From Bolinopsis microptera (lineage: Eukaryota > Ctenophora > Tentaculata > Lobata > Bolinopsidae), in the NCBI RefSeq assembly GCF_026151205.1, contig NC_087081.1:17463058-17527057 (forward strand): a stretch of 64,000 nucleotides of DNA. The letters run 5' to 3'. A program made the translations under genes and the position numbers. The notes under the pieces were generated by a model. That model did no database searches and was not told the origin of the DNA. It was given only the letters and a program-made list of their open reading frames with translations. How positions within the stretch are numbered: position 1 is the stretch's first letter; every line of letters begins with the position of its first letter. Below are positions 23,401 through 62,869 of the stretch, piece after piece.

Positions 23401-26400
23401 AAATTTCCCGGGAGTTTTGGGGAAATTAAAGGTTAAACTACCTGAAGGTTGGTTTTTTATTAGAATACCGGGCTTTGTGAGAAATTTTAAACACCTAAAG
23501 GTTTGGCCCCCCCCTTATTAAATACCCGGGGAGCGGGGTTTGTGGAAAGGGTAAAAAAAGGGAAGGGTTGGGTTTTTTGCTTTGCCGGGGGCTTTGTGAG
23601 TAAGAAAACAAAATGAAGGTTGTCTTATTAGCAATAGCCGGGCTTTGGAGGAAGAAAAACTACCAAAGGGTTTTTTTTTTACCTTTCCCCCGGGGGAGCT
23701 TTGTGGTAAGAAAAAATTCCTAAAGGTTTTTTCTTTTAGAAATACCCGGGGGGGGCTTTGTGAGTAATTTAAACTCCAAAGGGTTTGGCTTTTTGCAATA
23801 GCCGGGGGTTTTTTTGTGAGTAAGAAAATTACCTAAAGGTTGGCTTTTAGCAAAAACCCGGGGGAGCTTGTGAGTAATTTAAAGGGGGAAACCCTAAAGG
23901 TTGGTTTTTTAGCAATAGGGGGGGAGCTTTGTGATTTAAGGGTAAATTTCCGGGAAGGTTGGTTTTTTTGAAATTTCCCGGGGTTTTTGGTGGGGGTAAT
24001 AAAACCCCAAAAGGTTGGGTTTTTCAATACCGGGGAGTTTTGGGTGGGGAGTAAACACCGGGAAGGTTGTCTTATTAGAAATAGCCAAAATTTTGTGGGG
24101 AAAGAAAAAACAACCTGAAGGTTGTCTTTTTAGAAATTACCCGGGGGGGAGCTTTGTGATTTAAAAAACTCCGGGGAATGTTGTCTTATTAGCTATAGCC
24201 GGAGCTTTGGGGAGGAAGGGAAACCCTAAGGGGGTTTGGGTTTTTTTTTGAATAGCCGGAGCTTTGTGAGTAATAAAAACTACCTAAAGGGTTGCCCCTT
24301 TTAGCTTTTAAAGCCGGAGTTTTGGGGGTTTAAAAAAACCTCCCTGGGGGTTGTTTTTTATTAGCAAAACCGGGGAGTTTTTTTGTAGAAATTTTAAATT
24401 ACCTAAAGGGTTTGGGCTTATTAGAATAGGGGAAAGCTTTGAGTAAAGTAAACCCCTTTGAAGGTTGTTTTTTTATTAGAAATTTGGGCCGGGGGCTTTG
24501 TGGGGAATTAAACTCCCTGAAGGTTGGTTATTAGAAATTTACCCGGGGAGTTTTGGGGAAAAGTAAAAAAACCTAAAGGGTTTTGGTTTTTTTAGCAATT
24601 TGCCGGGGGGGGTTTTTGTGAGTAAGAAAATTCCTGAAGGTTGCCCTTTTTTTTTTAGGGGTTTTTGTAAAAAGTAAATCCCTGAAGGTTTGGCTTTTTA
24701 TTTTTACCCGGGATTTTGGGGTAAAAGTAAGTAAACTCCCAAGGGGTTGGCTTTTTAGCAAAGCCGGGGCTTTGTGAGAAAGAAAAATTTACCTAAAGGT
24801 TTGTCTTATTGCAATAGCCGGGGGGCTTTGGGGATTTTTAAGTAAATTTACCTAAAGGGTTGGCTTTAATTAAAATTAGCCGGACCCCCCCCCTTTGTGA
24901 TTTAAGTAAACACCTAAGGTTGTCTTTTTTAGCAAAAAGCGGGGGTTTTTGTGATTTAAGAAAAACAAACCTAAAGGTTTGGGCCCTTTTTAAAATTAGC
25001 CCGGGGGGGGTTTTTTTGGGGGGTAAGTAAATCCCTAAAAGGTTGGCTTTTAGCAATACCCCGGAGCTTGGAGGAAGAAAATTACCGAAGGTTGTTTTTT
25101 TAACAATACCCGGGGGGAGTTTTGGGGTTAAGTAAACTACTGGGGTTTGGTCTTATTAGAAATTTAGGGGGGATTTTGGGAGAAAAGTAAATTTCCTTTT
25201 GGGGTTGTCTTTTTAGAAATTTACCCGGGGGGCTTTGTGAGTAAGTAAACTACCTAAAGGGGTTGTTTATTACCCAATAGCCGGAGCTTTGTAGTAAGAA
25301 AAACTACCTAAAGGTTTTTCCTCATTAGTAGAAGGGGAGCTTGGGTGGGGGAAGAAAAACTATTTTGAAGGTTTTCTCTTTTAAATACCGGGAGCTTTGG
25401 GGGTTAAAAAAACCCTACCTGAAGGGTCTTTTTTGAAATTCGGGAGTTTTGTGGTGGAAAAACTCCCTAAAGGGTTGGTTTAATTACCCAAATTCCCAAA
25501 ACTTTGTGATTTAAGTAAACTACCTGAAGGGGGCTTTTTAAAATTTAGCCGGGCTTTGTGAGAAAGGGTAAACTCCCTAAAGGTTGTCTTATTTGCTTTT
25601 GAGGGGGGTTTTTGGGTGTAATTTTAAACTTCCTGAAGGGGGGTTATTGAAAATTAGCCGGAGTTTTGTGAGAAATTTTTAAACTCCTGAAGGTTGTTTT
25701 TTTAAAGAAATTTTAGCCGGGGTTTTTGTGGGGTTTAAATTTTACCAAAGGGGTTTGGGGCTTATTAGAAATTTGCCCTTTGGGAGAAAGGAAAACAAAC
25801 CTAAAGGGTTTGGGCCTTTTTTGAAATTGGGCCCGGCTTTGTGATTTAAGAAAAAACTACCTGAAGGTTGTCTATTAGTTTAGCCGGGTTTTTTTTTTGG
25901 AGTAAGGAAACTCCCTAAAGGTTGGTTTTTTAATTGGGCCAATACCCGGGACCCTTTGTGAGGGGCTTTTGGGGTTGTTTTTTTCCCAATGGGGGGGGGG
26001 TGTTTTGGGGTGAGAAATTTTAATTTTTCCTAAAAGGGGTTGTCTATTAGAAAATACCCGGGGAGTTTGTGGGAAAGGGAAAACACCAAAGGGGTTTCTT
26101 TTTAGAAATAAGGGGTTTTTTGTGAGAAAGGGGTTAACCCTACCTGAAGGTTGGCTTTTTTGAAGCCGGAGCTTTGGGGAGTAAGAAAACAAACCCTGAA
26201 GGTTGTCTTTTTTAACAATAGAGGGGGAGTTTTGGGAAAGGGTTAAACCCAAAAAGGTTGTTTTTCTTTGGGAAAATAGCCGGGGATTTTTTGAGGAAAG
26301 TATACTACCTAAATTTTTTGGTTTTTAAAGCTTTTCCCGGGCTTTGTAAAGGTAAGTAAACTCCCTGTAAGGTTGTCTTTTTTGCTTTACCCGGGGGGAG

Positions 26401-35400: not shown

Positions 35401-38400
35401 ACATTGACAGTACACAGATTAGTTACTGATAGTACACATTGACAGTACACAGATTAGTTACTGATAGTACACATTGACAGTACACAGATTAGTTACTAAT
35501 AGTACACATTGACAGTACACAGATTAGTTACTGATAGTACACATTGACAGTACACAGATTAGTTACTAATAGTACACATTGACAGTACACAGATTAGTTA
35601 CTAATAGTACACATTGACAGTACACAGATTAGTTACTGATAGTACACATTGACAGTACACAGATTAGTTACTGATAATACACATTGACAGTACACAGATT
35701 AGTTACTAATAGTATACATTGACAGTACACAGATTAATTACTGATAGTACACATTGACAGTAAACAGATTAGTTACTGATAGTACACATTGACAGTACAC
35801 AGATTAGTTACTGATAGTACACATTGACAGTACACAGATTAGTTACTGATAGTACACATTGACAGTACACAGATTAGTTACTGATAGTACACATTGACAG
35901 TACACAGATTAGTTACTGATAGTACACAATGACAGTACACAGATTAATTACTGATAGTACACATTGACAGTACACAGATTAGTTACTAATAGTACACATT
36001 GACAGTACACAGATTAGTTACTGATAGTACACATTGACAGTACACAGATTAGTTACTGATAGTACACATTGACAGTACACAGATTAGTTACTGATAGTAC
36101 ACATTGACAGTACACAGATTAGTTACTAATAGTACACATTGACAGTACACAGAGTAGTTACTGATAGTACACATTGACAGTACACAGATTAGTTACTGAT
36201 AGTACACATTGACAGTACACAGATTAGTTACTAATGCTGAAAAAGGCGCTTGTTATTTGTATGACTGAGAGATGAAACCGTGTTTTGGAGGTCTAAATAG
36301 TGCTCCTGGGGGAAGAAGGAAGAAGCTGAATGCGGTACGTAGTCACACTGTAGTGTACCCCCCCCCCCCCCCCCCCCCTCACCTTGTTTTAGCTATTTCA
36401 GAGTCCAGGCCCTCCCTTTACAATTAAATAATATGCTGTAATCGATTAAAAACTGAGAATCGTGTGAGTGTGATGTAGTCATGTACAAAATATACAATAT
36501 ACACATTATACATATACAATATACACATTGGCAGTACACAATATACAATATACACATTGACAGTACACAATATACAATATACACAGTACACAATAAACAA
36601 TATACACAGTACACAATACACAATATACACATTGACAGTACACAATATACACATTGACAGTGCACAACATACACAGTACACAATATACAATATACACATT
36701 GACAGTACACAATATACAATATACACATTGACAGTACACAATATACAATATACACAGTACACAATATACAATATACACATTATACATATACAATATACAC
36801 ATTGACAGTACACAATATACAATATACACAGTACACAATAAACAATATACACAGTACACAATATACAATATACACATTGACAGTACACAATATACACATT
36901 GACAGTGCACAACATACACAGTACCCAATATACAATATACACATTTACAGTACACAATATACAATATACACATTGACAGTACACAATATACAATATACAC
37001 ATTGACAGTACACAATATACACATTATACAATATACACATTGGCAGTACACAATATACAATATACACATTGGCAGTACACAATATACAATATACACATTG
37101 ACAGTACACAATATACAATATACACATTGGCAGTACACAATATACAATATACACATTGGCAGTACACAATATACAATATACACATTGACAGTACACAATA
37201 TACAATATACACATTGACAGTACACAATATACAATATACACAGTACACAATATACAATATACACATTATACATATACAATATACACATTGACAGTACACA
37301 ATATACAATATACACAGTACACAATAAACAATATACACAGTACACAATATACAATATACACATTGACAGTACACAATATACACATTGACAGTGCACAACA
37401 TACACAGTACCCAATATACAATATACACATTGACAGTACACAATATACAATATACACATTGACAGTACACAATATACAATATACACATTGACAGTACACA
37501 ATATACACATTATACAATATACACATTGGCAGTACACAATATACAATATACACATTGGCAGTACACAATATACACATTGACAGTACACAATATACAATAT
37601 ACACATTGGCAGTACACAATATACAATATACACATTGACAGTACACAATATGCAGTGTAATATGAACAGTTTTTTACAGAGTGTAAAATTAAAACATTGA
37701 AATGCACATGAATATACAGTGCTCCATTTCAGATCAAGGAGTTTGAGGATGATATGGAGAAGAGAACTAAACGTCTCCACTCTCAATTAGAGGAACTCAC
37801 TGATTTAGTGGACTCGCTCGAGATAGACAGGTTCTATACTATTACTTATTCAATGTGATTTAGTCTTATGGGAACCTATGCATGGTAGAGCACAGCAAGG
37901 CCGACCAAGACAAAGCTACTTGTATATGTTACTGAAGGAAGAACCCTGACACGGGACAGGGATTATCGAGGGGTTATCTGGTGTAGATCAGACTATTAGT
38001 TGAGCACTGTGCTATATTTGTATATAATATATTATATAATATATAGTTTTGTGGAACATCACTTGCCGACGATCGACCGTGGAATGGCTTCCAGGGAAGT
38101 GATGTTGCATATACAGTATACACATTATATAGTGTTACAAGTGTAGCAGAGCTGTAATTATCTTGGCAACTTCCCAGACACGAGCTGATAGGAGAAGGAC
38201 TGATAGCAGAGGATCCGGACACTCTGATACTATCTGACGAGGCGATACACCGGAGATACGATATCATCACTAAATACCGGTAACCAATAGTTACAAGCAA
38301 ATAGCTATTCCATACTAGTACTACAAGCAAATAGCTATTCCATACTAGTACTACAAGCAAATAGCTATTCCATACTAGTACTACAAGCAAATAGCTATTC

Positions 38401-41400
38401 CATACTAGTACTACAAGCAAATAGCTATTCCATACTAGTACTACAAGCAAATAGCTATTCCATACTAGTACTACAAGCAAATAGCTATTCCATACTAGTA
38501 CTACAAGCAAATAGCTATTCCATACTAGTACTACAAGCAAATAGCTATTCCATACTGGTACTACAAGCAAATAGCTATTCCATACTGGTACTACTGCCGT
38601 ACTGGCTTTTGTAAGATTGTAGCATTGTAACAAAGACTTTTTGCAGTGATTTAGTTACACCCCTGCTTAGTATAAACTGTACTGTGCACTGTGTACTGTG
38701 TACTGTGCACTGTTGGGCTACACTTAGTATAAACTCCACCCTCCCCAGGAGTGAAGTGTACTGTGTACTGTGTACTGTGTACTGTGTACTGTGTACTGTG
38801 TATAAACTCCACCCTCCCCAGGAGTAAGGTGTACTGTGTACTGTGTACTGTGTACTGTGTACTGTGTACTGTGTACTGTGTACTGTGTACTGTGTACTGT
38901 GTACTGTGTACTGTGTACTGTGTACTGTGTACTGTGTACTGTGTATAAACTCCACCCTCCCCAGGAGTAAGGTGTACTGTGTACTGTGTACTGTGTACTG
39001 TGTACTGTGTACTGTGTACTGTGTACTGTGTACTGTGTACTGTGTACTGTGTACTGTGTATAAACTCCACCCTCCCCAGGAGTAAGGTGTACTGTGTACT
39101 GTGTACTGTGTACTGTGTACTGTGTACTGTGTACTGTGTACTGTGTACTGTGTACTGTGTACTGTGTACTGTGTATAAACTCCACCCTCCCCAGGAGTAA
39201 GGTGTACTGTGTACTGTGTACTGTGTACTGTGTACTGTGTACTGTGTACTGTGTACTGTGTACTGTGTACTGTGTACTGTGTACTGTGTACTGTGTACTG
39301 TGTACTGTGTACTGTGTACTGTGTACTGTGTATAAACTCCGCCCTCCCCAGGAGTGAAGTGTACTGTGTACTGTGTACTGTGTACTGTGTACTGTGTACT
39401 GTGTATAAACTCCACCCTCCCCAGGAGTAAGGTGTACTGTGTACTGTGTACTGTGTACTGTGTACTGTGTACTGTGTACTGTGTACTGTGTACTGTGTAC
39501 TGTGTACTGTGTACTGTGTATAAACTCCACCCTCCCCAGGAGTAAGGTGTACTGTGTACTGTGTACTGTGTACTGTGTACTGTGTACTGTGTACTGTGTA
39601 CTGTGTACTGTGTACTGTGTACTGTGTACTGTGTACTGTGTACTGTGTACTGTGTACTGTGTACTGTGTACTGTGTACTGTGTATAAACTCCACCCTCCC
39701 CAGGAGTAAGGTGTACTGTGTACTGTGTACTGTGTACTGTGTACTGTGTACTGTGTACTGTGTACTGTGTACTGTGTACTGTGTACTGTGTATAAACTCC
39801 GCCCTCCCCAGGAGTGAAGTGTACTGTGTACTGTGTACTGTGTACTGTGTACTGTGTATAAACTCCGCCCTCCCCAGGAGTGAAGTGAACTGTGTACTGT
39901 GTACTGTGTACTGTGTACTGTGTACTGTGTACTGTGTACTGTGTACTGTGTACTGTGTACTGTGTATAAACTCCACCCTCCCCAGGAGTGAAGTGAACGA
40001 TAACATGTCCACTTCTATAGATCTGAAACACCACATCACAAGGCTTCACAGACTGCTGCTGAAAGGGGAGACACTACATGATTCCATATACCTCCACTTC
40101 GACTCTCCTAAGCCATCCTCCTTACAGGTTTCACTTTACTTCATAGGCAATACAACTAAAGAGAGCCCAACAAATGAGTGTCTTTGAAATGTGACAGTGA
40201 TCAAGGCTATCTGCAATTTAAATCGGTTTGAAGGATGTAAAGTTACAGGTTTATAACTCATAATGAATGTAAAACAAAGTGAATAAAAATAATAATTGTA
40301 ATCTTCTTGTCCTTTTACCACCCTGTCCCCCAGATCCTGAAGAGAGAGCTGTCCCGACTAGAACAACTGAAACAAGAGAAACTAGAGGCGTACGTGGGGG
40401 GTCTCAGGGAGGAGATAGTTAACTTCCAGAAACTGTGCTTCCAGACCAGATGCGAGGTAAGTGTTATATAGGCGTACGTGGGGGGTCTCAGGGAGGAGAT
40501 AGTTAACTTCCAGAGACTGTGCTTCCAGACCAGATGCGAGGTAAGTGTTATATAGGCGTACGTGGGGGTCTCAGGGAGGAGATAGTTAACTTCCAGAGAC
40601 TGTGCTTCCAGACCAGATGCGAGGTAAGTGTTATATAGGCGTACGTGGGGGGTCTCAGGGAGGAGATAGTTAACTTCCAGAGACTGTGCTTCCAGACCAG
40701 ATGCGAGGTAAGTGTTATATAGGCGTACGTGGGGGGTCTCAGGGAGGAGATAGTTAACTTCCAGAAACTGTGCTTCCAGACCAGATGCGAGGTAAGTGTT
40801 ATATAGGCGTACGTGGGGGGTCTCAGGGAGGAGATAGTTAACTTCCAGAGACTGTGCTTCCAGACCAGATGCGAGGTAAGTGTTGTATAGGCGTACGTGG
40901 GGGGTAGGTAAGTGTTATATAGGGGGGGGTGTCATGTCCGTCTATGTCCGCCTATGTCCTGTCCTTTTTGGATTCTATGAGACAACGGACGTGTTTTTTG
41001 GGACATAGGCGGACACGGACGGACATTGGCGGACTCGGACGGACATTGGCGGACTCGGACGGACATAGGCGGACCCGGACGGACATAGGCGGACTCGGAC
41101 GGACATTGGTGGACATTAGCGGACATTGGTGGACATTAACGGACAAACATTTTGAGAATTTTTCGCAACTTGTATTATAATCTTGTACAAAACAAACGAC
41201 TTATTAATCACCCTAAAGCTATTAATAGCTTTAACTTATTATATCAAATTATATAGGGACCCAGGAAAAGGCCCCAGGAGGAGGAGGAGGAGGATGACTG
41301 GGGAGGAGGAGGACTGTTGAGGACTGATGAGGAGGACTGAGGACGAGGAGGAGGAGTAGGAGGAGGACTGAGGAGGGGAGGAGGAAGAGAACTGGGGAGG

Positions 41401-44400
41401 ATCAGGAAGACCCAGGAGGAGGACCCAGGAGGAGGAGGAGAAGGACTCAGGAGGATGACTCAGGAGGAGGACTGAGGAGGACTGAGAAGGAGGAGGACTG
41501 AAGAGTACTGGAGAGTACTGAGGAGGATGGCTGAGGAGGATGGCTGAGGAGGATGGCTGAGGAGGATGGCTGAGGAGGATGACTGAGGAGGATGACTGAG
41601 AGGGAAGAGGAGGATCAGGAAGACCCAGGAGGAGGAGGAGGAGGAGGACCCAGGAGGACCTAAGAGGAGGAGGAGAAGAACTGAGGAGGATGACTCAGGA
41701 GGAGGAGGACTCAGGAGGAGGACTCAGGAGGACTGAGAAGGAGGAGGACTGAGAAGGATGGCTGAGGAGGATGACTGAGAGGGAGGAGGAGGAAGAGGAG
41801 GAAGAGGACTGAGGAGAAGGACTGAGGAGGAGAAGGAGGACCCAGGAGGAGGAGGACTCAGGAGGAGGAGGACCCAGGAGGAGGATGACTCAGGAGGAGG
41901 AGGACTCAGGAGGAGGACTCAGGAGGACTGAGAAGGAGGAGGACTGAGGAGGATGGCTGAGGAGGATGACTGAGAGGGAGGAGGAGGAAGAGGAGGAAGA
42001 GGACTGAGGAGAAGGACTGAGGAGGAGAAGGAGGACCCAGGAGGAGGAGGACTCAGGAGGAGGAGGACCCAGGAGGAGGACCCAGGAAAAGGCCCCAGGA
42101 GGAGGAGGAGGACTGGGGAGGAGGAGGACTGTTGAGGACTGATGAGGAGAACTGAGGACGAGGAGGAGTAGGAGGAGGACCCAGGAGGAGGAGGAGGAGG
42201 AGGACCCAGGAGGAGGACTCAGGAGGACTGAGGAGGAGGACTGACGATGACTGAGAAGGAGGACTGAGGAGTACTGAGGAGGATGGCTGAGGAGGATGGC
42301 TGAGGAGGATGGCTGAGGAGGATGACTGAGGAGGATGACTGAAAGGGAGGAGGAGGAGGACTCAGGAGGGGAGGAGGAAGAGAACTGGGGAGGATCAGGA
42401 AGACCCAGGAGGAGGACCCATGAGGAGGAGGAGGAGGACTGAGGAGGATGACTCAGGAGGAGGAAGACTCAGGAGGAGGACTGAGGAGGACTGAGAAGGA
42501 GGAGGACTGAAGAGTACTGAAGAGTACTGAGGAGGATGGCTGAGGAGGATGGCTGAGGAGGATGGCTGAGGAGGATGGCTGAGGAGGATGACTGAGGAGG
42601 ATGACTGAGGAGGATGACTGAGAGGGAGGAGGAGGATCAGGAAGACCCAGGAGGAGGAGGACTGTTGAGGACTGATGAGGAGAACTGAGGACGAGGAGGA
42701 CCCAGGAGGAGGAGGAGGAGGAGGACCCAGGAGGAGGAGGACTCAGGAGGACTGAGGAGGAGGACTGACGATGACTGAGAAGGAGGAGGACTGAGGAGTA
42801 CTGAGGAGGATGGCTGAGGAGGATGGCTGAGGAGGATGGCTGAGGAGGATGACTGAGGAGGATGACTGAGAGGGAGGAGGAGGAGGACTCAGGAGGAGGA
42901 CTCAGGAGGAAGAGGACTCAGGAGGAGGACTTAGGAGAAATGAGAAGGAGGACTCTGGACTGAGGAGAACTGAGGAGGAGGAGGAGGAGGAGGACTGAAT
43001 AGGAGGAGGAGAAGGAGGGGGACTCGGAGAGGACTGAGGACTCGGAGGACTGATGAGAAGGATGAGGAGGACTGAGGACCGAGGAGGAAGAGGAGGAGGA
43101 TGAAGAGGAGGAGGAGGACCCAGGAGGAGGAGGACTGAGGAGGAGGACTGAGGAGGATGACTGAGAGGGAAGAGGAGGAGGAGGAAGAGGAGGAGGACTC
43201 AGGAGGAGGAGGAGGAGGACTGAGGAGGACTGAGAAGGAGGAGGACTGAGGAGGAGGAGGAGGAGGACTGAATAGGAGGAGGAGGAGGGGGACTGGGGGA
43301 GGACTGAGGAGAAGGATGGAGGACTGAGGAGAAGGATGAGGAGGAGGACTGAGGAGGACTGAGGACTGAGGAGGAAGAGGAGGAGGATGAAGAGGAGGAG
43401 GAGGAGGACCCAGGAGGAGGACTCAGAAGGAGGAGGAGGACTGGGGAGGAGGAGGACTGTTGAGGACTGATGAGGAGGACTGAGGACGAGGAGGAGTAGG
43501 AGGAGGACTGAGGAGGGGAGGAGGAAGAGGACTGAGGAAGATCAGGAAGACCCAGGAGGAGGAGGAGGAAGAGTAGGAGGAGGAAGCATTTAAATGTTAT
43601 TTCCATTTTTGTCCGTTTTTGTCCATTTTTGTCCGTTTTTGTCCGCTCTATTTTTTGTCCGTTTTGAAAATATAGGGTACCGAACGGACAAAAAACATGA
43701 TCCCCCTATAACAGCAAAAATTGAACATTTTATTTAGCAATTTAGGTGTCCATTAATGTCCGCTAATGTCCGTCTATGTCCGCCTATGTCCGTCTATGTC
43801 CGTCTATGTCCGCCTATGTCCGCCTATGTCCGCCTATGTCCGCCTATGTCCTGTCCTTTTTGGATTCTATGAGACAAGCGGACATAGACGGACGTGACAC
43901 CCCCCCCCCCCCCTATATAGGCGTACGTGGGGGGTCTCAGGGAGGAGATAGTTAACTTCCAGAAACTGTGCTTCCAGACCAGATGCGAGGTAAGTGTTAT
44001 ATAGGCGTACGTGGGGGGTCTCAGGGAAGAGATAGTTAACTTCCAGAAACTGTGCTTCCGGACCAGATGCGAGGTAAGTGTTATATAGGCGTACGTGGGG
44101 GGTCTCAGGGAAGAGATAGTTAACTTCCAGAAACTGTGCTTCCAGACCAGATGCGAGGTAAGTGTTATATAGGCGTACGTGGGGGGTCTCAGGGAGGAGA
44201 TAGTTAACTTCCAGAAACTGTGCTTCCAGACCAGATGCGAGGTAAGTGTTATATAGGCGTACGTGGGGGGTCTCAGGGAGGAGATAGTTAACTTCCAGAA
44301 ACTGTGCTTCCAGACCAGATGCGAGGTAAGTGTTGTATAGGCGTACGTGGGGGGTCTCAGGGAAGAGATAGTTAACTTCCAGAAACTGTGCTTCCGGACC

Positions 44401-47400
44401 AGATGCGAGGTAAGTGTTGTATAGGCGTACGTGGGGGGTCTCAGGGAGGAGATAGTTAACTTCCAGAAACTGTGCTTCCAGACCAGATGCGAGGTAAGTG
44501 TTATATAGGCGTACGTGGGGGGTCTCAGGGAAGAGATAGTTAACTTCCAGAAACTGTGCTTCCGGACCAGATGCGAGGTAAGTGTTGTATAGGCGTACGT
44601 GGGGGGTCTCAGGGAGGAGATAGTTAACTTCCAGAAACTGTGCTTCCAGACCAGATGCGAGGTAAGTGTTATATAGGCGTACGTGGGGGGTCTCAGGGAG
44701 GAGATAGTTAACTTCCAGAAACTGTGCTTCCAGACCAGATGCGAGGTAAGTGTTATATAGGCGTACGTGGGGGGTCTCAGGGAGGAGATAGTTAACTTCC
44801 AGAAACTGTGCTTCCAGACCAGATGCGAGGTAAGTGTTGTATAGGCGTACGTGGGGGGTCTCAGGGAAGAGATAGTTAACTTCCAGAAACTGTGCTTCCA
44901 GACCAGATGCGAGGTAAGTGTTATATAGGCGTAAGTGGGGGGTCTCAGGGAAGAGATAGTTAACTTCCAGAAACTGTGCTTCCAGACCAGATGCGAGGTA
45001 AGTGTTATATAGGCGTACGTGGGGGGTCTCAGGGAGGAGATAGTTAACTTCCAGAAACTGTGCTTCCAGACCAGATGCGAGGTAAGTGTTATATAGGCGT
45101 ATGTGGGGGGTCTCAGGGAGGAGATAGTTAACTTCCAGAAACTGTGCTTCCAGACCAGATGCGAGGTAAGTGTTGTATAGGCGTACGTGGGGGGTCTCAG
45201 GGAAGAGATAGTTAACTTCCAGAAACTGTGCTTCCAGACCAGATGCGAGGTAAGTGTTATATAGGCGTAAGTGGGGGGTCTCAGGGAAGAGATAGTTAAC
45301 TTCCAGAAACTGTGCTTCCAGACCAGATGCGAGGTAAGTGTTATATAGGCGTAAGTGGGGGGTCTCAGGGAAGAGATAGTTAACTTCCAGAAACTGTGCT
45401 TCCAGACCAGATGCGAGGTAAGTGTTATACAGGCGTACGTGGGGGGTCTCAGGGAAGAGATAGTTAACTTCCAGAAACTGTGCTTCCAGACCAGATGCGA
45501 GGTAAGTGTTATATAGGCGTAAGTGGGGGGTCTCAGGGAAGAGATAGTTAACTTCCAGAAACTGTGCTTCCGGACCAGATGCGAGGTAAGTGTTATATAG
45601 GCGTACGTGGGGGGTCTCAGGGAAGAGATAGTTAACTTCCAGAAACTGTGCTTTCAGACCAGATGCGAGGTAAGTGTTATATAGGCGTACGTGGGGGGTC
45701 TCAGGGAGGAGATAGTTAACTTCCAGAAACTGTGCTTCCAGACCAGATGCGAGGTAAGTGTTATATAGGCGTATGTGGGGGGTCTCAGGGAAGAGATAGT
45801 TAACTTCCAGAAACTGTGCTTTCAGACCAGATGCGAGGTAAGTGTTATATAGGCGTATGTGGGGGGTCTCAGGGAAGAGATAGTTAACTTCCAGAAACTG
45901 TGCTTTCAGACCAGATGCGAGGTAAGTGTTATATAGGCGTATGTGGGGGGTCTCAGGGAAGAGATAGTTAACTTCCAGAAACTGTGCTTTCAGACCAGAT
46001 GCGAGGTAAGTGTTATATAGGCGTATGTGGGGGGTCTCAGGGAAGAGATAGTTAACTTCCAGAAACTGTGCTTTCAGACCAGATGCGAGGTAAGTGTTAT
46101 ATTGGCGTACATGTGTAATCATAATTTAATATAATTTGTTTCTGTCCAGCTTATTATGTTCTACTAATTAATATGATTGACAGAAAAAGTAGTCGCCCCT
46201 CAGTAGTATAGGATATACTGTATATATATATACTACTCCCCTCCCCAAGGTGTCCAGCAGCTCAGACACAGCCCTCGACAGAGATAGTGAGCTAAGGACC
46301 AGCTCCACAGATACCCTCGACCTGCCCGACATCATCCTGGGTGACATAGAGAACAAGGACCACCTCTCCAATACTAACCTCATATACGAGACTACAAAGG
46401 ACACAGATAACAATGAGGTGTTGTCCAGGGACAATGGTAGGATCTCAATAACGGAATATGTGCCTCAACTGGAAGAAGAGCTGGAGACCTGGGAATCCTT
46501 TTACAGAAGTAACTATGATGTGTTCGAGCTGATCAGAAAGTGGAAGGAGCTCAATGACAGGTTGGAAACAAGATTCTTATGATCGTATTACTAATAAAAT
46601 GACAGTGATGGGGGAACTACCCCCCCCCCCCCACTGTGAATACCCCCCACTGTGAATACCCCCCACTGTGAATACTTCCCCCACCCCCACTGTGAATACT
46701 TTCCCCACCCCCACTGTGAATACTCCCCCCCCCCACTGTGAATACTTCCCCCACTGTGAATACTTCCCCCACCCCCACTGTGAATACTTTCCCCACCCCC
46801 ACTGTGAATACTCCCCCCCCCCCCCCACTGTGAATACTTCCCCCACTGTGAATACTTCCCCCACCCCCACTGTGAATACTTTCCCCACCCCCACTGTGAA
46901 TACTCCCCCCCCACTGTGAATACTTCCCCCACTGTGAATACTTCCCCCACCCCCACTGTGAATACTTTCCCCACCCCCACTGTGAATACTCCCTCCATCC
47001 CCCACTGTGAATACTCCCTCCACCCCCCACTGTGAATACTCCCTCCACCCCCCACTGTGAATACTCCCTCCACCCCCCCACTGTGAAAACTCCCTCCACC
47101 CCCCCCCCCCCCTGTGAATACTCCCTCCATCCCCCACTGTGAATACTCCCTCCATCCCCCACTGTGAATACTCCCTCCACCCCCCACTGTGAATACTCCC
47201 TCCATCCCCCACTGTGAATACTCCCTCCATCCCCCACTGTAAATACTCCCTCCACCCCCCCCCCCCACTGTGAATAATTCCCCCACCCCCACTGTGAATA
47301 CTCCCTCCACCCTCCCACTGTGAATACTCCCTCCACCCTCCCACTGTGAATACTCCCTCCACCCCCCCACTGTGAATACTCCCTCCACCCCCCCCCCCAC

Positions 47401-50400
47401 TGTGAATACTCCCCCCACCCCCACTGTGAATACTCCCTCCACCCTCCCACTGTGAATACTCCCCCCACCCCCACTGTGAATACTCCCTCCACCCCCCCCC
47501 CCCCCCCACTGTGAATACTCCCCCCCCCCCCCCCCCCACTGTGAAAACTCCCCCACCCCCCCCCCCCCCACTGTGAATACTCCCTCCACCCTCCCACTGT
47601 GAATACTTTCCCCACCCTCCCACTGTGAATACTCCCCCCATCCCCCACTGTGAATACTCCCTCCACCCCCCCCCCCCCCCCCCACTGTGAATACTCCCTC
47701 CACCCCCACTGTGAATACTCCCCCCCCACTGTGAATACTTCCCCCACCCCCACTGTGAATACTCCCTCCACCCTCCCACTGTGAATACTCCCCCCACCCC
47801 CACTGTGAATACTCCCCCCCCCCCCACTGTGAATACTCCCCCCACCCCCACTGTGAATACTCCCCCCCCCACTGTGAATACTCCCCCCACCCCCACTGTG
47901 AATACTCCCCCCCCCCCCCCCCCCCCCACTGTGAATACTCCCCCCACCCCCACTGTGAATACTCCCCCCCCCCCCCACTGTGAATACTCCCCCACCCCCA
48001 CTGTGAATACTCCCCCCCCCCACTGTGAATACTCCCCCCACCCCCACTGTGAATACTCCCCCCCCCCACTGTGAATACTCCCTCCACCCTCCCACTGTGA
48101 ATACTTTCCCCACCCTCCCACTGTGAATACTCCCTCCACCCCCACTGTGAATACTCCCCCCACCCCCACTGTGAATACTCCCTCCACCCCCACTGTGAAT
48201 ACTCCCCCCCCCCCCCACTGTGAATACTCCCTCCATCCCCCACTGTGAATACTCCCTCCATCCCCCACTGTGAATACTCCCTCCCCCATCCCCCACTGTG
48301 AATACTCCCTCCCCCATCCCCCACTGTGAATACTCCCTCCATCCCCCACTGTGAATACTCCCTCCACCCCCCCACTGTGAATACTCCCTCCCCCCACTGT
48401 GAATACTTCCCCCACCCCCACTGTGAATACTCCCTCCACCCCCACTGTGAATACTCCCTCCTCCATCCCCCACTGTGAATACTCCCTCCATCCCCCACTG
48501 TGAATACTCCCTCCACCCCCCCACTGTGAATACTCCCTCCCCCCACTGTGAATACTTCCCCCACCCCCACTGTGAATACTCCCTCCACCCCCACTGTGAA
48601 TACTCCCCCCCCCCCCCCCCACTGTGAATAATTCCCCCACCCCCACTGTGAATACTCCCTCCACCCCCCACTGTGAATACTCCCCCCATCCCCCACTGTG
48701 AATACTCCCTCCACCCTCCCACTGTGAATACTCCCTCCACCCTCCCACTGTGAATACTCCCCCCACCCCCACTGTGAATACTCCCTCCACCCCCCCCCCC
48801 CCCCCCCACTGTGAATACTCCCTCCACCCCCCCCCCCCCCCCCCCCCACCCCCACTGTGAATAATTCCCCCACCCCCACTGTGAATACTCCCTCCACCCT
48901 CCCACTGTGAATACTCCCTCCACCCCCCCACTGTGAATACTCCCCCCATCCCCCACTGTGAATACTCCCTCCACCCCCCCACTGTGAATACTCCCTCCAC
49001 CCCCCCACTGTGAATAATTCCCCCACCCCCACTGTGAATACTCCCTCCACCCCCACTGTGAATACTCCCTCCACCCCCACTGTGAATACTCCCCCCCCCC
49101 CACTGTGAATACTCCCTCCACCCCCACTGTGAATACTCCCTCCATCCCCCACTGTGAATACTCCCTCCCCCATCCCCCACTGTGAATACTCCCTCCACCC
49201 CCACTGTGAATACTCCCTCCACCCCCCCACTGTGAATACTTCCCCCACCCCCACTGTGAATACTCCCTCCACCCCCCCACTGTGAATAATTCCCCCACCC
49301 CCACTGTGAATACTCCCTCCACCCCCACTGTGAATACTCCCCCCCCCCCCCCCACTGTGAATACTTCCCCCACCCCCACTGTGAATACTCCCTCCACCCC
49401 CACTGTGAATACTCCCTCCACCCTCCCACTGTGAATACTCCCTCCACCCTCCCACTGTGAATACTCCCTCCACCCTCCCACTGTGAATACTCCCTCCACC
49501 CCCCACTGTGAATACTCCCCCCCCCCCCCACTGTGAATACTCCCCCCACCCCCACTGTGAATACTCCCTCCACCCCCCCCACTGTGAATAATTCCCCCAC
49601 CCCCACTGTGAATACTCCCTCCACCCCCACTGTGAATACCCCCCCCCCCCCCCCCCCCCCATGTGAATAATTCCCCCACCCCCACTGTGAATACTCCCTC
49701 CACCCCCCACTGTGAATACTCCCTCCACCCCCCCACTGTGAATACTTCCCCCCCCCCCCCCCCCCCACTGTGAATACCCCCCCCCCCCCCCCCCCCCCCC
49801 CACTGTGAATAATTCCCCCACCCCCACTGTGAATACTCCCTCCACCCTCCCCCCCCCCCCCCCCCCCACTGTGAATACTTCACACTCCAGGTTTGCAGAG
49901 CTCGAGACGCCCTCGCCTGATAAATACAACAATCGAGGGGGTTCGTTGTTACAGTCACAGAAAGAAGCAGCTAAGATCTCTAAAGAAATACCCAAGATCG
50001 AGAGCAAAGTTCTGGCTGAAGTGGATAAAACTATTGGGGAGGTTAGTCTTTAGAGACATACGAATTAGGGGTCGTCACATATTACGTAATCAGCCGAGGG
50101 GGGAGGGGGGTTTCCAAATGATTACGCTAGTAGTAGTGTAATTTTGACACAATAGCTAAAGGGTTAAAATTGGCCAAAAAGTGATGACGTAATATGTGAA
50201 CGACCTCTTATTAATATTAGCTGAATAAAACTGTATAATTTTGTCCTCCATTTTCAAAGGTAAGGTATGTTTCATTAAGTTAACCACGTGACACCCTATT
50301 CCAGGAGATCCGAATAAACGGGTTGAGTTTAGAAGACTACTTTGTGGAGAACAGAGCCACCACTTCTCTCTCCCGGATCAACAGTTTGCGGAGGTCTCGT

Positions 50401-58735: not shown

Positions 58736-59842
58736 CTAGTAGTTGTAAGATGAAGCACGGTTGTCACGACCATACGAATCACTACGGCCTTGAGAATCAC
58801 GGCCATAACCCTCGGGTGCAGGAGCACGGCTATCACCACGACTGTATGTCTCCCTGCTCTCACCACCACGACTGTATGAGTCAGAACGGCTGTAAGGGTC
58901 GGCAGGACGGCTGTAGCCAGACGAGCTGGTGTTGTAATCTCGACTATAGCTGTCACTAGCGCCATATCCACCACTACTAGCACCATACCCACCACTACTT
59001 CCATACCCTCCTTTATCAGCTCCGTAAGCAGGCCTGTCATATGAGGAAGGAGGGTAGGAGGCAGGCGCAGAATAAGAAGCAGCCCCGTAGCCACCACGGT
59101 CCCCTCCATAGCTGCCACGTTCGTTTCTGTAGCTGCCTCGATCACCACCCCCGTACTTGTCACCCCCTCCATATCCACCTGAACCTCTGTCATCACCACG
59201 ACCACCACCACGACCACCTCCAGTTGAGAACCGCTCGTAATCCACGTTATAGTCCATGTGACCCCTCTCATCCTCGTACACGTCCTTTACCATCTCAGCC
59301 ACACAATCATCTACATTCTTTGTGTCCTCACTCTCTATAGTTATGATTCGTTCACGAAGGCCTTCGATGGCCTCTTCCTTTTTCATTGTACCAATCTTAA
59401 CATTGAACTGATCTTTCAAACGATTCACATTGGCTCCTGCCTTACCTATGATCTTCCCAACACTGGTATCAGGAACTACGATCTTACAGGTAGCTTTTCT
59501 AGCATCGTTCTGACTAGTATTGATATTTTTGACGTGTGGAGGGACCTTATCCGTACGAATCTTCTCTTGAACAAAAGCAATTACTTTATGCATGGATTCG
59601 AGCTCGCCAGATATTGATATGACTCGTTCATCAGTATTGGGAAATCGAACATTGTTTTTTGAGACCTGGATGTTAGCACCGGTTTCTTCTTTGATCTGTT
59701 TGATGGCTTCACCACCCTTACCAATGACTGCACCTGCACTGTAATAGGGACAAAGCACTTTGATGACTTTCTCATTTCGACGGTCTCTCTTGGCAAATTT
59801 CTGATCACCTTCATCATCATATGCACGCTTACGATCTCCCAT
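58736..59842 (-). CDS. Nova/PCBP-type two-KH-domain RNA-binding protein A (368 aa)
   Basis: A single coding exon. KH proteins of the Nova/hnRNP K/PCBP type bind short pyrimidine-rich RNA motifs and regulate splicing or stability. KH1 lies at about residues 26-96 with GKGG at 41-44 ([16 protein letters not shown], close to Nova KH1); KH2 at about 116-190 with GKAG at 133-136. A basic stretch (KRDRRN) precedes KH1. From residue 205 on, the tail is Gly/Ser/Tyr/Arg-rich with RGG and SYSR repeats, a low-complexity region of the kind that drives condensates. A strong acceptor (TTTCCCTTTCTAG) lies 17 bases before ATG, so the leader is spliced. The neighbour at 60596 is a paralogue. Whether it is Nova, PCBP or a lineage-specific relative needs a tree. 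Confidence 0.92.
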
Positions 59843-60595
59843 GATAACGGCTGAGCTGACTAGAAAGGGAAACAGTGGTGTGAGAAGGCTGTCATGTTTG
59901 TTTAAATGTAATGAACCATCATAAATTGCTGTTCATTGACTTTCAATTAGAATTTGCCGCGAGGTTGCTGCAAAAGCTGTAGGCATTAAATGTACGAACA
60001 GTTTCAAATTTAGTCTATTGATATTGATAAACATTGTTAGTCCACTGATAACGACTAACCAATCTGATATGTTTCAAGATAAAGATCAATAGAGTATACA
60101 GATTATATATAGAGATATATAACACTGGCATCACTTTACACACCTTGATACTTAGGGAAGAAATCAATCATGTATTGTTGAAATTTATTAGCTTCTTTCA
60201 TAGAAGTTTAGCTTGTCACTGACAATTCATATCATTTAGCATAAAAACTCGTGAACACTATTATTTAAGTATTAAAGTAAGATCAACAGTGCTTATACCA
60301 GGTATTCAAGTGAAACAGAAAGTCAAGAGCAAAATCCCAGCATATCTCCTGGTGCACAATTTACATGCTGCATTAAGAACTATATAGTACTTACTTATAG
60401 TATATACTCTTATTGCTTTACTAATCATCCAAATACAACGCAATGTCATTTACAAACTAACTTAGTCTGCATTCTGTTCTGTTTTAAATAACTACGTAAC
60501 AACAATATATAAATTATGACCTCTACCAAAACGGGAGAGCTCTATCTGACCATCTTCGATCCAAGATAACTTATAATGATAAAAACATGGTTAAC
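59843..60595. other. Spacer between the two KH genes
   Basis: Non-coding. It should contain the leader exon and promoter of KH gene A and the 3' UTR of KH gene B, both on the minus strand. The acceptor for gene A is at 59860-59861. No repeat or other gene seen. Confidence 0.5.
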
Positions 60596-61705
60596 TCAAT
60601 AATTATCTTTGTAATTAGACTGATTGCTAAAACTACCCTCCCTACTACCACCACTTTTATTGTCAGTAGCATAACCTGCTCCATATCCAGCAGCTTGGTT
60701 GCCATAACCAGCAGCTGGGGTGCCATAGCCAGCAGCTTGATTTCCATAGCCTTGATTTCCATAGCCACCTGCTTGGTTACTGTAACCACCACCTTGATTT
60801 CCATATCCCCCACCTTGATTGCCATAGCCGCCACCTTGGTTTCCATATCCAGCTCCTTGATTTCCATTGTATCCACCTCCTTGGCTGCCATATCCAGGTT
60901 GATTACCATAACCGCCCTGATTATCATAACCACCACTTTGGTTGCCATAACCACCATCTTGATTGCCATAACCGCTACCTTGATTTCCGTAGCCACCTTG
61001 GTTCCCATAACCCCCACCTTGACTTCCATAACCACCTCCTTGGTTACCATAACCACCACTGCTGTTATTGCTATAACCACCACGATCCATCTGAAATTGG
61101 TTATAGTCCAAATTGTAATCCATATTTACTCTGTCATCTTCATAAACTTCTTTTATAACATCAGCAACACAATTGTCAACCCCTTTATCATCACCCTCAA
61201 CAGAAACTATGCGCTCACTCAAACCAGCAACAGCATCAGCCGGTTTAGTCATGGTGATCTTCACTTGATGATCATCTTTTAGGCGGTTAACATTAGCTCC
61301 ACCCTTTCCAATAAGTTTCCCTACACTTTGATCTGACACAACAATTTTACAGATACTTTTACGAGCATCTACTTTGTCAAATCTGACTCCCTTTGCTTGA
61401 GGTGAAGGCTTTTCAGTACGGATTTTATCCTGAACAAACTGAATTACCTTCATTTGGCCTTCTAATTCTCCTGATATTGCTATAACTCGTTCATCAGTTT
61501 TAGGAAACCTAGCAGCTCCTTTAGAGACCTGAATGTTAGTACCGCTTTCCTGCTTGATTTGATCAATAGCTGCTCCTTTGGTTCCTATCACAGCACCTGT
61601 GCAATAGTAAGGACACAATATCTTGATAACTTTTCCAGTGCGGCGCTCCTTCCTAGGAAATTGTTGACCATCATCATCGTAGCTCCGTTTACGATCGTCC
61701 GACAT
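60596..61705 (-). CDS. Nova/PCBP-type two-KH-domain RNA-binding protein B (369 aa)
   Basis: Tandem paralogue of the gene at 58736-59842, also a single coding exon on the same strand. KH1 at about residues 26-96 with GTKG at 41-44; KH2 at about 116-190 with GKGG at 133-136, at exactly the positions of protein A. The start (MSDDRKRSYDDDGQQFPRKE) and the linker end (DRVNMDYNLDY) also match A, so the duplication included the whole gene. The tail differs: about 20 repeats of GGYGNQ or GGYGSQ, Gln/Asn-rich and prion-like instead of RGG-rich. An acceptor (CAATCCTTCAG) ends two bases before ATG. Confidence 0.92.
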   Translation of the reverse strand: MSDDRKRSYDDDGQQFPRKERRTGKVIKILCPYYCTGAVIGTKGAAIDQIKQESGTNIQVSKGAARFPKTDERVIAISGELEGQMKVIQFVQDKIRTEKPSPQAKGVRFDKVDARKSICKIVVSDQSVGKLIGKGGANVNRLKDDHQVKITMTKPADAVAGLSERIVSVEGDDKGVDNCVADVIKEVYEDDRVNMDYNLDYNQFQMDRGGYSNNSSGGYGNQGGGYGSQGGGYGNQGGYGNQGSGYGNQDGGYGNQSGGYDNQGGYGNQPGYGSQGGGYNGNQGAGYGNQGGGYGNQGGGYGNQGGGYSNQAGGYGNQGYGNQAAGYGTPAAGYGNQAAGYGAGYATDNKSGGSREGSFSNQSNYKDNY

Positions 61706-62869
61706 GGCTGAAGGATTGTCTATTATGCAACAATAGATTTGATATGGATAAATTTAAAACGAACAAATGACTCAAATAACTTCCTAAGAAAAGCATCCGT
61801 TAAGATGCACTTGAGAGTTCTTTACTATTTTTGATCTAAAGCCTAGCTTTAAGGAATCAACATTCATGATTTATCATCTGCAGTTTTGTGATTAAGGTAA
61901 ACTGTAAAGTGTAGTATAGCAATATGGTTTACAGTGCAATGTTGAAGAGTACCCTAATATTCTAAACAGTGGCGAAATGTTGCATGTTGGCACAATTCCT
62001 GAAACATCTCGCTAAAAAGATCAGCCTTAAGGCCTCAGGGAGGGTTCAAGGTCTTACCAGTTGGCAGACCACCTACTACCTGATGCTCGCGCACCACCCC
62101 TAGCCCTCCATAGAGCCTGGTTTGACGTAAAATTGAGGGTAACCATTACCAATTTATTCAGTTAACCTTGCAAATAACCGGTTCTTAACATTTTGTTGCT
62201 CCCAATAAACTTATCCATGGGTATCAATTGGCCATCCAACGTCAATAGAACTATAGAACTGTTATATGCCCTTAATTTGTTGAAAAATAGAGGTTAACAT
62301 ATATTTTTAAAAATCAGTCTTTTAGCTCCCCTGAGACCACCTTCAATTAATTAATTAATTCAAAACCTCATATCTCAGCTTTGGAGCAAAGAATCAAAAA
62401 TTGCTGCATTGACGAATAATGTTGCCAGTTAAAGGTCCCATGTCATAAACTGTAAAAGATAGATTTTATACAAAATGTCATAAATTAAAGTTTTTTCGGT
62501 CAGGACAAAAGCCCCTGTGGCCCCTGTGGACTTAAGAAAGGCCAAAGATTAGATTAGATTAGGTTGAGAATAATGACATAAACATCATCACTAGTTTTAA
62601 ACATTCTTTCTGATTTCCTCATTATCAGAACTGTGAACATTTCACAGCCTTCGTCATTAAAAACAAACAAATTCTATAACTAAAATAATTGTCATAATTT
62701 ATTTACATATAAAAAAGTGGACAAAAAATGTGAGTACAATGACAGAGTCCCTAATGTGGAGAAGGCTACCTTCTCTCCGTTCCTCACACACTCAAATTAC
62801 CTAATTGAACAAATAGACAAGATGGTGTAGACATCAGCCAGAGGTCGTTTTAAATAAAGCGATACAGTA
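61706..62869. other. Upstream region of KH gene B, non-coding
   Basis: No gene seen. A TTAA microsatellite near 62346-62360 and GATTA repeats near 62546-62566. The leader exon and promoter of KH gene B should lie here. Confidence 0.5.

Follow-up and report, generated by a model that had tools for sequence, protein, structure and literature searches.

How can a gene be spliced correctly when the end of one of its exons, together with the splice donor, stands 33 times in a row? The question is raised by a 64-kb stretch of the genome of the ctenophore Bolinopsis microptera (C10:17463058-17527057 of the 264.65-Mb assembly; this whole stretch is called the window below), in which a MAP65/ASE1 gene (PRC1) carries such an array, the copy number being that of a single assembly. 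Tandem repeats across exon-intron boundaries are known as 'mirages' from Adh3 and the globins BflGb6 and BflGb9 of amphioxus (PMC3087553). Judged from the sequence, the PRC1 array is probably a minisatellite of this type, which would have arisen by a local duplication across the junction, would be tolerated through the exon-proximal donor, and in all likelihood serves no function itself.

The donor array and a second array in PRC1

The host gene was read from the sequence as six exons (A-F), joined at the first-donor or last-acceptor junctions. The joined peptide of 312 amino acids matches PF03999 over residues 2-305 (E 6.9e-26; 91.5 bits, cut-off 26.9), which bears out the initial annotation in assigning the repeated exon end and donor to PRC1, and the first-donor junction of exon D falls within this match. 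From exon D on, exon end and donor are amplified inside the following intron, and a unit-by-unit count gave 33 units of 84 bp at 40387-46103, each composed of 70 bp of exon end and 14 bp of intron, with unit 1 being the real exon end itself. This is the unit, the copy number (about 33) and the conserved GAG/GTAAGT that had been described before, and the word counts agree with it: AGGTAAGT occurs 33 times on the plus strand of 40381-46130, 32 times as GAGGTAAGT, and the plus strand of the entire window holds a single further AGGTAAGT, at 26350. All 33 unit starts read GGCGTA followed by C, A or T, and 31 of the 33 units are exactly 84 bp long; unit 3 has 83 bp, and unit 7 (40890) is shortened to 32 bp with AGGTAAGT retained. 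When the unit was searched against the assembly, at least 32 matches were obtained, every one within the window.

The units diverge by about 2%, with variants common to neighbouring units, and each of the 31 full 84-bp units has at most 4 mismatches to the real exon end. Eight of the 84 columns are variable and no donor base is among them, the donor being unchanged in all 32 aligned units; with so few variable columns, the chance of such an invariance is about 0.4 (hand calculation). The array is discontinuous, as a transposon-like insert of 2,992 bp follows the truncated unit 7, and the variants differ between the blocks on either side: a G in column 45 is present in 3 of 5 aligned units upstream of the insert versus 0 of 26 downstream, and an A in column 25 in 0 of 5 versus 16 of 26 (unit 3 and the truncated unit 7 being left out of the comparison), which suggests that the donor array is older than the insert. 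Units 30-33 are alike, and the last unit departs from its neighbours at its last base only. The terminal inverted repeats of the insert carry G-runs and its AGG-rich inner part is a satellite; an end related to the insert is also found upstream of an exon of a PRC1 paralogue on C1 (L010, from the start to about 533).

Only the first donor continues the reading frame, as had been claimed: reading on from seven of the 32 later donors ends each time at an in-frame TAG, four codons beyond the first junction, and since this TAG sits in the first intron copy, the stop holds for the remaining later donors too. It had further been proposed that a 7-base microhomology seeded the first duplication. The identity is there, as GGCGTAC at 40387 is present again at 46104, exactly and directly after the last unit, and such an origin would fit it, yet cannot be proved, since a terminal 7-bp remnant of a further unit would look identical.

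While the repeat anatomy of the initial annotation held, the 3-kb insert and a second array, which concerns an acceptor of the same gene, had gone unmentioned there. In the intron before exon C, 12 copies of ATAAACTCC(A or G)CCCTCCCCAG/GAGT lie amid GTGTACT heptamers, the last of them being the real acceptor at 39986, and the exon start reads GAGTGAAGTG in five copies, including the real one, and GAGTAAGGTG in the other seven. From three of the 11 extra copies (39704, 39812 and 39878) an open frame would continue into exon C, whereas the remaining eight would hit a stop. PRC1 therefore has putative decoys on the upstream side of one acceptor and on the downstream side of one donor, and each time it is the exon-proximal copy that would yield the protein.

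Junction-straddling arrays elsewhere in the genome

The array had been regarded as a singular case, but similar arrays are present in other genes of this genome. Pairs of AGGTAAGT 12-42 bases apart were counted 1648 times in the whole genome, those of AGGTGAGT 1585 times, and those of AGGTATGT 2225 times, the latter number being inflated by a 9-bp simple repeat. These are counts of pairs and not of arrays, so that long arrays weigh heavily, and some of the control arrays contain splice sites. The three donor words reversed gave 38, 224 and 168 pairs, and four composition-matched controls, two words made of the same bases as AGGTAAGT and the reversal of each, gave 625, 302, 332 and 807, so that all three donor words lie above all seven controls, AGGTAAGT about fivefold above the control median. 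A 43-fold enrichment of donor pairs, which results from the reversed word (1648 versus 38), was rejected in view of the four further controls, with which the enrichment becomes about 4-5-fold (the reversed AGGTAAGT and these four average 421, and the median over the seven controls is 302). At a distance of 43-73 bases, 1732 pairs of AGGTAAGT were found versus 22 of its reversal, and single words occur 10,772 versus 7,977 times. Pairs of the acceptor-like TTTTGCAG were also in excess (269 versus 34), in part from an 11-bp simple repeat.

Fifteen clusters of AGGTAAGT were listed on C1, of which 13 were fetched, the low-complexity ones at C1:3543145 and 16704353 being left out. Exon end and donor are repeated together in 8 of the 13, and not in the other five. 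The paralogous loci at C1:36576 and C1:761375 (L005 and L006) have a 32-bp exon-end array in common, with the real donor CAG/GTACTT on the other strand, where CAG/GTACTTACCT reads as AGGTAAGT. A sushi gene has two exons with donor arrays, at C1:428574 (44 AGGTAAGT listed) and at C1:434528 (2 copies), one of which supports the family assignment above and the other below the Pfam cut-off. Further donor arrays belong to a dynein heavy chain exon at C1:885211, where a PDB match (8.8e-9) extends across the first-donor junction, to an exon of an RNA polymerase largest subunit at C1:3037851 with 2 copies (RNA_pol_Rpb1_1 3.8e-8, below the Pfam cut-off; we take the gene to be POLR3A), and to an ADAM-like disintegrin exon at C1:14124772 (disintegrin 4e-6, below the Pfam cut-off). 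Homologue searches with the exons at C1:36576 and C1:4181600 remained empty, and their support consists of an open frame and splice signals. The two-copy cases, the RNA polymerase exon and the sushi exon at C1:434528, look nascent. Protein matches cross the first-donor junction in four genes (PRC1, ADAM-like, RNA polymerase and dynein), as is required of the exon-proximal junction if these proteins are made. In the clusters L011, L012, L014 and L015 no exon end was seen, and the array of L007 is intronic, close to a donor on the opposite strand. L008, with 39 units, has mixed donors (23 GTAAGT, 9 GTGAGT, 7 GTTAGT); this is a recount, as the donor figures for L005, L008 and L031 had been dropped because the donor was split by the unit edge or the wrong word had been taken.

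Among the matches listed for AGGTGAGT there were seven arrays of at least 3 copies, two of which were already known (C1:2508249 and 4182436). The other five were fetched and judged by eye: two comprise exon ends (a sushi-like one at C1:401054, and C1:9362580), one a donor without exon bases, one possibly straddles an acceptor in a degenerate form, and one does neither. The minus strand of L053 has, at about 595-822, an array that starts at a donor and consists of 24-25-bp units that each read GT...AG, without further exon bases.

Arrays were also picked by words that are no splice signals, six by GAGTATGA and six by ATGGTGAA, from the first about 100 places listed and hence from C1 to early C4. 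This sample is small, excludes isolated pairs and arrays of roughly 10-bp units, and contains two arrays (C3:16570196 and C4:1436747) of which one end lies outside the fetched piece; exons were called by eye from open frames and splice signals. A splice junction is straddled by 3 of the 12 arrays, all of them from ATGGTGAA (3 of 6): two at exon ends (C2:13516976 and C3:6531060) and one at an acceptor and exon start (C1:2508648, minus strand), the exon of which is presumably copine-like. With PRC1 and this exon as examples for acceptors, both edges of exons are affected. Of the other nine arrays, one is at the end of a reading frame, one is coding within an exon, one is intronic, and six are without a visible exon. 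The array at C3:20654761 (L023, about 570-1964) repeats the end of a zinc-finger-like frame together with the stop codon, and its logic would equal that of an array at a splice edge, at the end of a reading frame.

Origin of the array, choice of the splice site and rival explanations

In the proposed course of events, a local duplication by chance took in both the 3' end of exon D and the first bases of the intron behind it, which was short (some 160 bp) prior to the expansion, and would then have been expanded to 33 copies through unequal exchange or slippage. The spliceosome would pick the exon-proximal donor and the extra copies would leave as intron, hence the tolerance, whereas duplications wholly within exons alter the protein and should mostly be lost. 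Without the copies, the remainder of the intron measures 160 bp in PRC1; for five further loci the values are 122, 178, 190, 63 and 113 bp. The share of intron-touching duplications that straddle an edge, 2u/(L+u), is 0.69 for PRC1 (84, 160) and 0.34-0.92 over the six loci by hand calculation, a geometric argument without a fitted model on loci that were selected for having arrays. Tandem repeats are abundant, too: Tandem Repeats Finder covered 16% of thirteen 6-kb pieces, one from each of C1-C13 at position 8,000,001, and 44% of the window, and arrays with a period of 10-150 and at least 2.5 copies made up 9% of the 13 pieces. Short introns and abundant tandem duplication together should lead to many junction-straddling arrays without any special role of the splice signals.

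With at most 4 of 84 bases changed between any full unit and the real exon end, the real site cannot be marked by the donor, nor by enhancers within the final 70 exon bases. The real exon D differs from the decoys by its first 53 bases and its acceptor, and we infer that exon definition is the natural explanation of the site choice. The real site is distinguishable from the decoys only by its position relative to the upstream exon, and with several donor and acceptor arrays in one genome, there is a natural experiment on exon definition and splice-site choice.

Several points weigh against a neutral origin and tolerance of this kind. None of the six GAGTATGA arrays straddles a junction. The donor words outrank all controls in tandem pairs, although a random placement in short introns should also give an excess, and the invariance of the donor in 32 of 32 units fits chance, yet fits constraint too. 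In vitro, moreover, the intron-proximal one of duplicated donors can be preferred, and with such a preference the array would be harmful.

A wider claim would be that ctenophore splice junctions are a preferred seat for the birth or retention of minisatellites, in hundreds of genes by extrapolation, with the exon-proximal copy always winning and the arrays perhaps being useful, for example as U1 docking ladders that guard introns full of repeats against premature polyadenylation; we consider this rather unlikely. It is also unlikely that the array is a source of splicing noise, in which later donors or weak acceptors within the units are used and give truncated or altered PRC1 or the seeds of new exons and introns. 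Each unit does contain a weak acceptor, cttccag, from which in-frame pseudo-exons of 27 or 12 nt are predicted, the later donors lead to the early stop, and the three acceptor copies that are in frame and free of stops would also fit. Furthermore, the PRC1 paralogue at C1:10070623-10071577, which has higher scores exon by exon, shows an intron-free reading past the site that matches the intron of the window, and its local alignment with exon D stops at LCF, 5 residues before this intron. The difference, however, may be a gain in the window or a loss in the paralogue. For the amphioxus globins, a model of exon and intron seeding has been put forward, but regular splicing was reportedly left undisturbed by the mirages there, as judged by reverse transcription PCR (PMC3087553).

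Another possibility is that the donors act, with splicing slowed by the row of U1 sites, U1 titrated or pooled by them, or the 5.8-kb intron guarded against premature polyadenylation (U1 telescripting), and that the array is retained for this reason. Such an action would agree with 33 copies of AGGTAAGT of which none has decayed and with the excess of donor words in tandem pairs, but the conservation is within chance, and other arrays have mixed donors, are at acceptors, or are without a splice site (6 of 12 without an exon). Titration of U1, which had been suggested for this array, finds no support and is also numerically implausible as a global effect of a single gene, since the cellular pool of U1 is about a million and 33 sites per transcript are few by comparison. 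Altogether we regard an action of the donors as very improbable, and selection on the donors is not supported either, for the invariance is within chance and the donors of L008 are mixed. That the array, or its length, was made by the assembler is the least probable explanation: if the assembly is the published one of B. microptera, wtdbg on PacBio reads with short-read polishing can misjudge arrays (PMC10232365), but the unit variants are ordered and block-specific, an insert lies between TATATA copies inside the array, and independent arrays with other units exist elsewhere in the genome.

Two other candidates were tried and rejected. Recursive splicing via AG/GTAAGT, which does recur in the units, would need a good pyrimidine tract in front, and the preceding ACCAGATGCG has none as read by eye. 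A role of intronic repeats as CTEP loop anchors of ctenophores was considered from PMC12221973, in the text of which the words 'tandem repeat', 'minisatellite' and 'satellite' are absent.

Relation to known systems and further features

As a minisatellite with a unit across an exon-intron boundary and with AG/GT signals in it (33 AGGTAAGT in 33 units), the PRC1 array has the defining sequence features of a mirage. The block-specific variants, together with the likeness of units 30-33, might reflect concerted evolution inside the cluster, in which the edge units of amphioxus mirages take no part. In amphioxus, where mirages also show length and somatic instability, two BflGb6 haplotypes have 3 and 6 units of 150-160 bp, and the units in Adh3 are 10-72 bp long (PMC3087553), whereas the PRC1 array is found in a ctenophore, has 33 units of 84 bp, and is accompanied by arrays in several genes. 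The kind itself is already known; the novelty lies in the phylum, in the number of copies and in the return of such arrays in several genes. Mirages, described in cephalochordates, are now seen in ctenophores, whose phylum branches at the base of the animals or close to it; no description of them in ctenophores was found in open-licence PMC papers, including word finds in two ctenophore genome papers.

In humans, a 31-bp variable number tandem repeat (VNTR) of CBS, c.1444_1467+7(16_21), consists of 24 exon and 7 intron bases with 16-21 copies by its name, so that exon end and donor are repeated there too (PMC2630376), and has been placed at 'exon 13-intron 13' (PMC1395315). It is polymorphic. 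From the title of Lievers 2001, this VNTR is said to be associated with reduced CBS activity. The Rogers model of intron gain, with the potato RNA-dependent RNA polymerase as a case, likewise starts from a tandem duplication around AG/GT (PMC4974935; Rogers cited in PMC3087553), but there an exonic duplication creates a new intron, whereas in PRC1 donor and intron pre-existed and the copies are intronic. Internal tandem repeats at exon-intron boundaries in human segmental duplications also reshape the exon-intron structure by minisatellite units, but on average with 4 units of 30 bp and in primate paralogues, and an alternative transcript that keeps the repeat in the exon was supported in 66% of the intron changes (PMC2812944).

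The features of the gene and its arrays are collected in Table 1.

Table 1. Exons, arrays and insert of the PRC1 gene, in positions of the window
Feature	Position	Strand	Basis
PRC1 exon A	37733..37830	+	sequence reading; in PF03999-matching joined peptide
PRC1 exon B	38178..38279	+	sequence reading; in joined peptide
Intronic array, 30 bp x10	38292..38594	+	Tandem Repeats Finder
Acceptor array, 11 extra 3' splice sites with exon start; first exonic bases 38749 ... 39878	38720..39985	+	Tandem Repeats Finder and junction reading
PRC1 exon C; real acceptor is the 12th, exon-proximal copy	39986..40127	+	joined peptide and junction reading
PRC1 exon D; ends in the 70 exon bases of donor-array unit 1	40334..40456	+	unit count, Pfam, junction reading
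Donor array block 1, units 1-6 and truncated unit 7	40387..40921	+	unit count
Real 5' splice donor GAG/GTAAGT, first intron bases	40457..40465	+	first-donor junction inside Pfam match
Transposon-like insert; terminal inverted repeats of about 37 bp, AGG-rich inner repeat, TATATA flanks 40916-40921 and 43914-43919	40922..43913	.	sequence reading
Donor array block 2, 26 units of 84 bp	43920..46103	+	unit count
GGCGTAC, partial copy or seed microhomology	46104..46110	+	sequence reading
PRC1 exon E, acceptor ends 46249	46250..46560	+	joined peptide and junction reading
PRC1 exon F, start region only	49891..50050	+	Pfam match C10:17512943-17513086

Scans for Rfam families, tRNAs and bacterial promoters gave nothing of use. 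Elsewhere in the window, two adjoining open frames on the minus strand (58739-59932 and 60599-61753) have repetitive C-terminal parts, and we take them to resemble paralogous KH-type RNA-binding proteins. The photoproteins bear out that the genome is a ctenophore's: a search of the assembly with aequorin gave 55 matches in intronless frames, of which 54 are free of internal stops and many lie in tandem, with photoprotein clusters at C1:21999412-22006929, C5:17012730-17026401, C13:11082451-11094340 and C3:3415490-3427363. One of the frames on C1 has PDB matches to berovin (1.1e-123) and mnemiopsin (4.6e-121) versus 2.5e-18 for obelin as the best hydrozoan protein.

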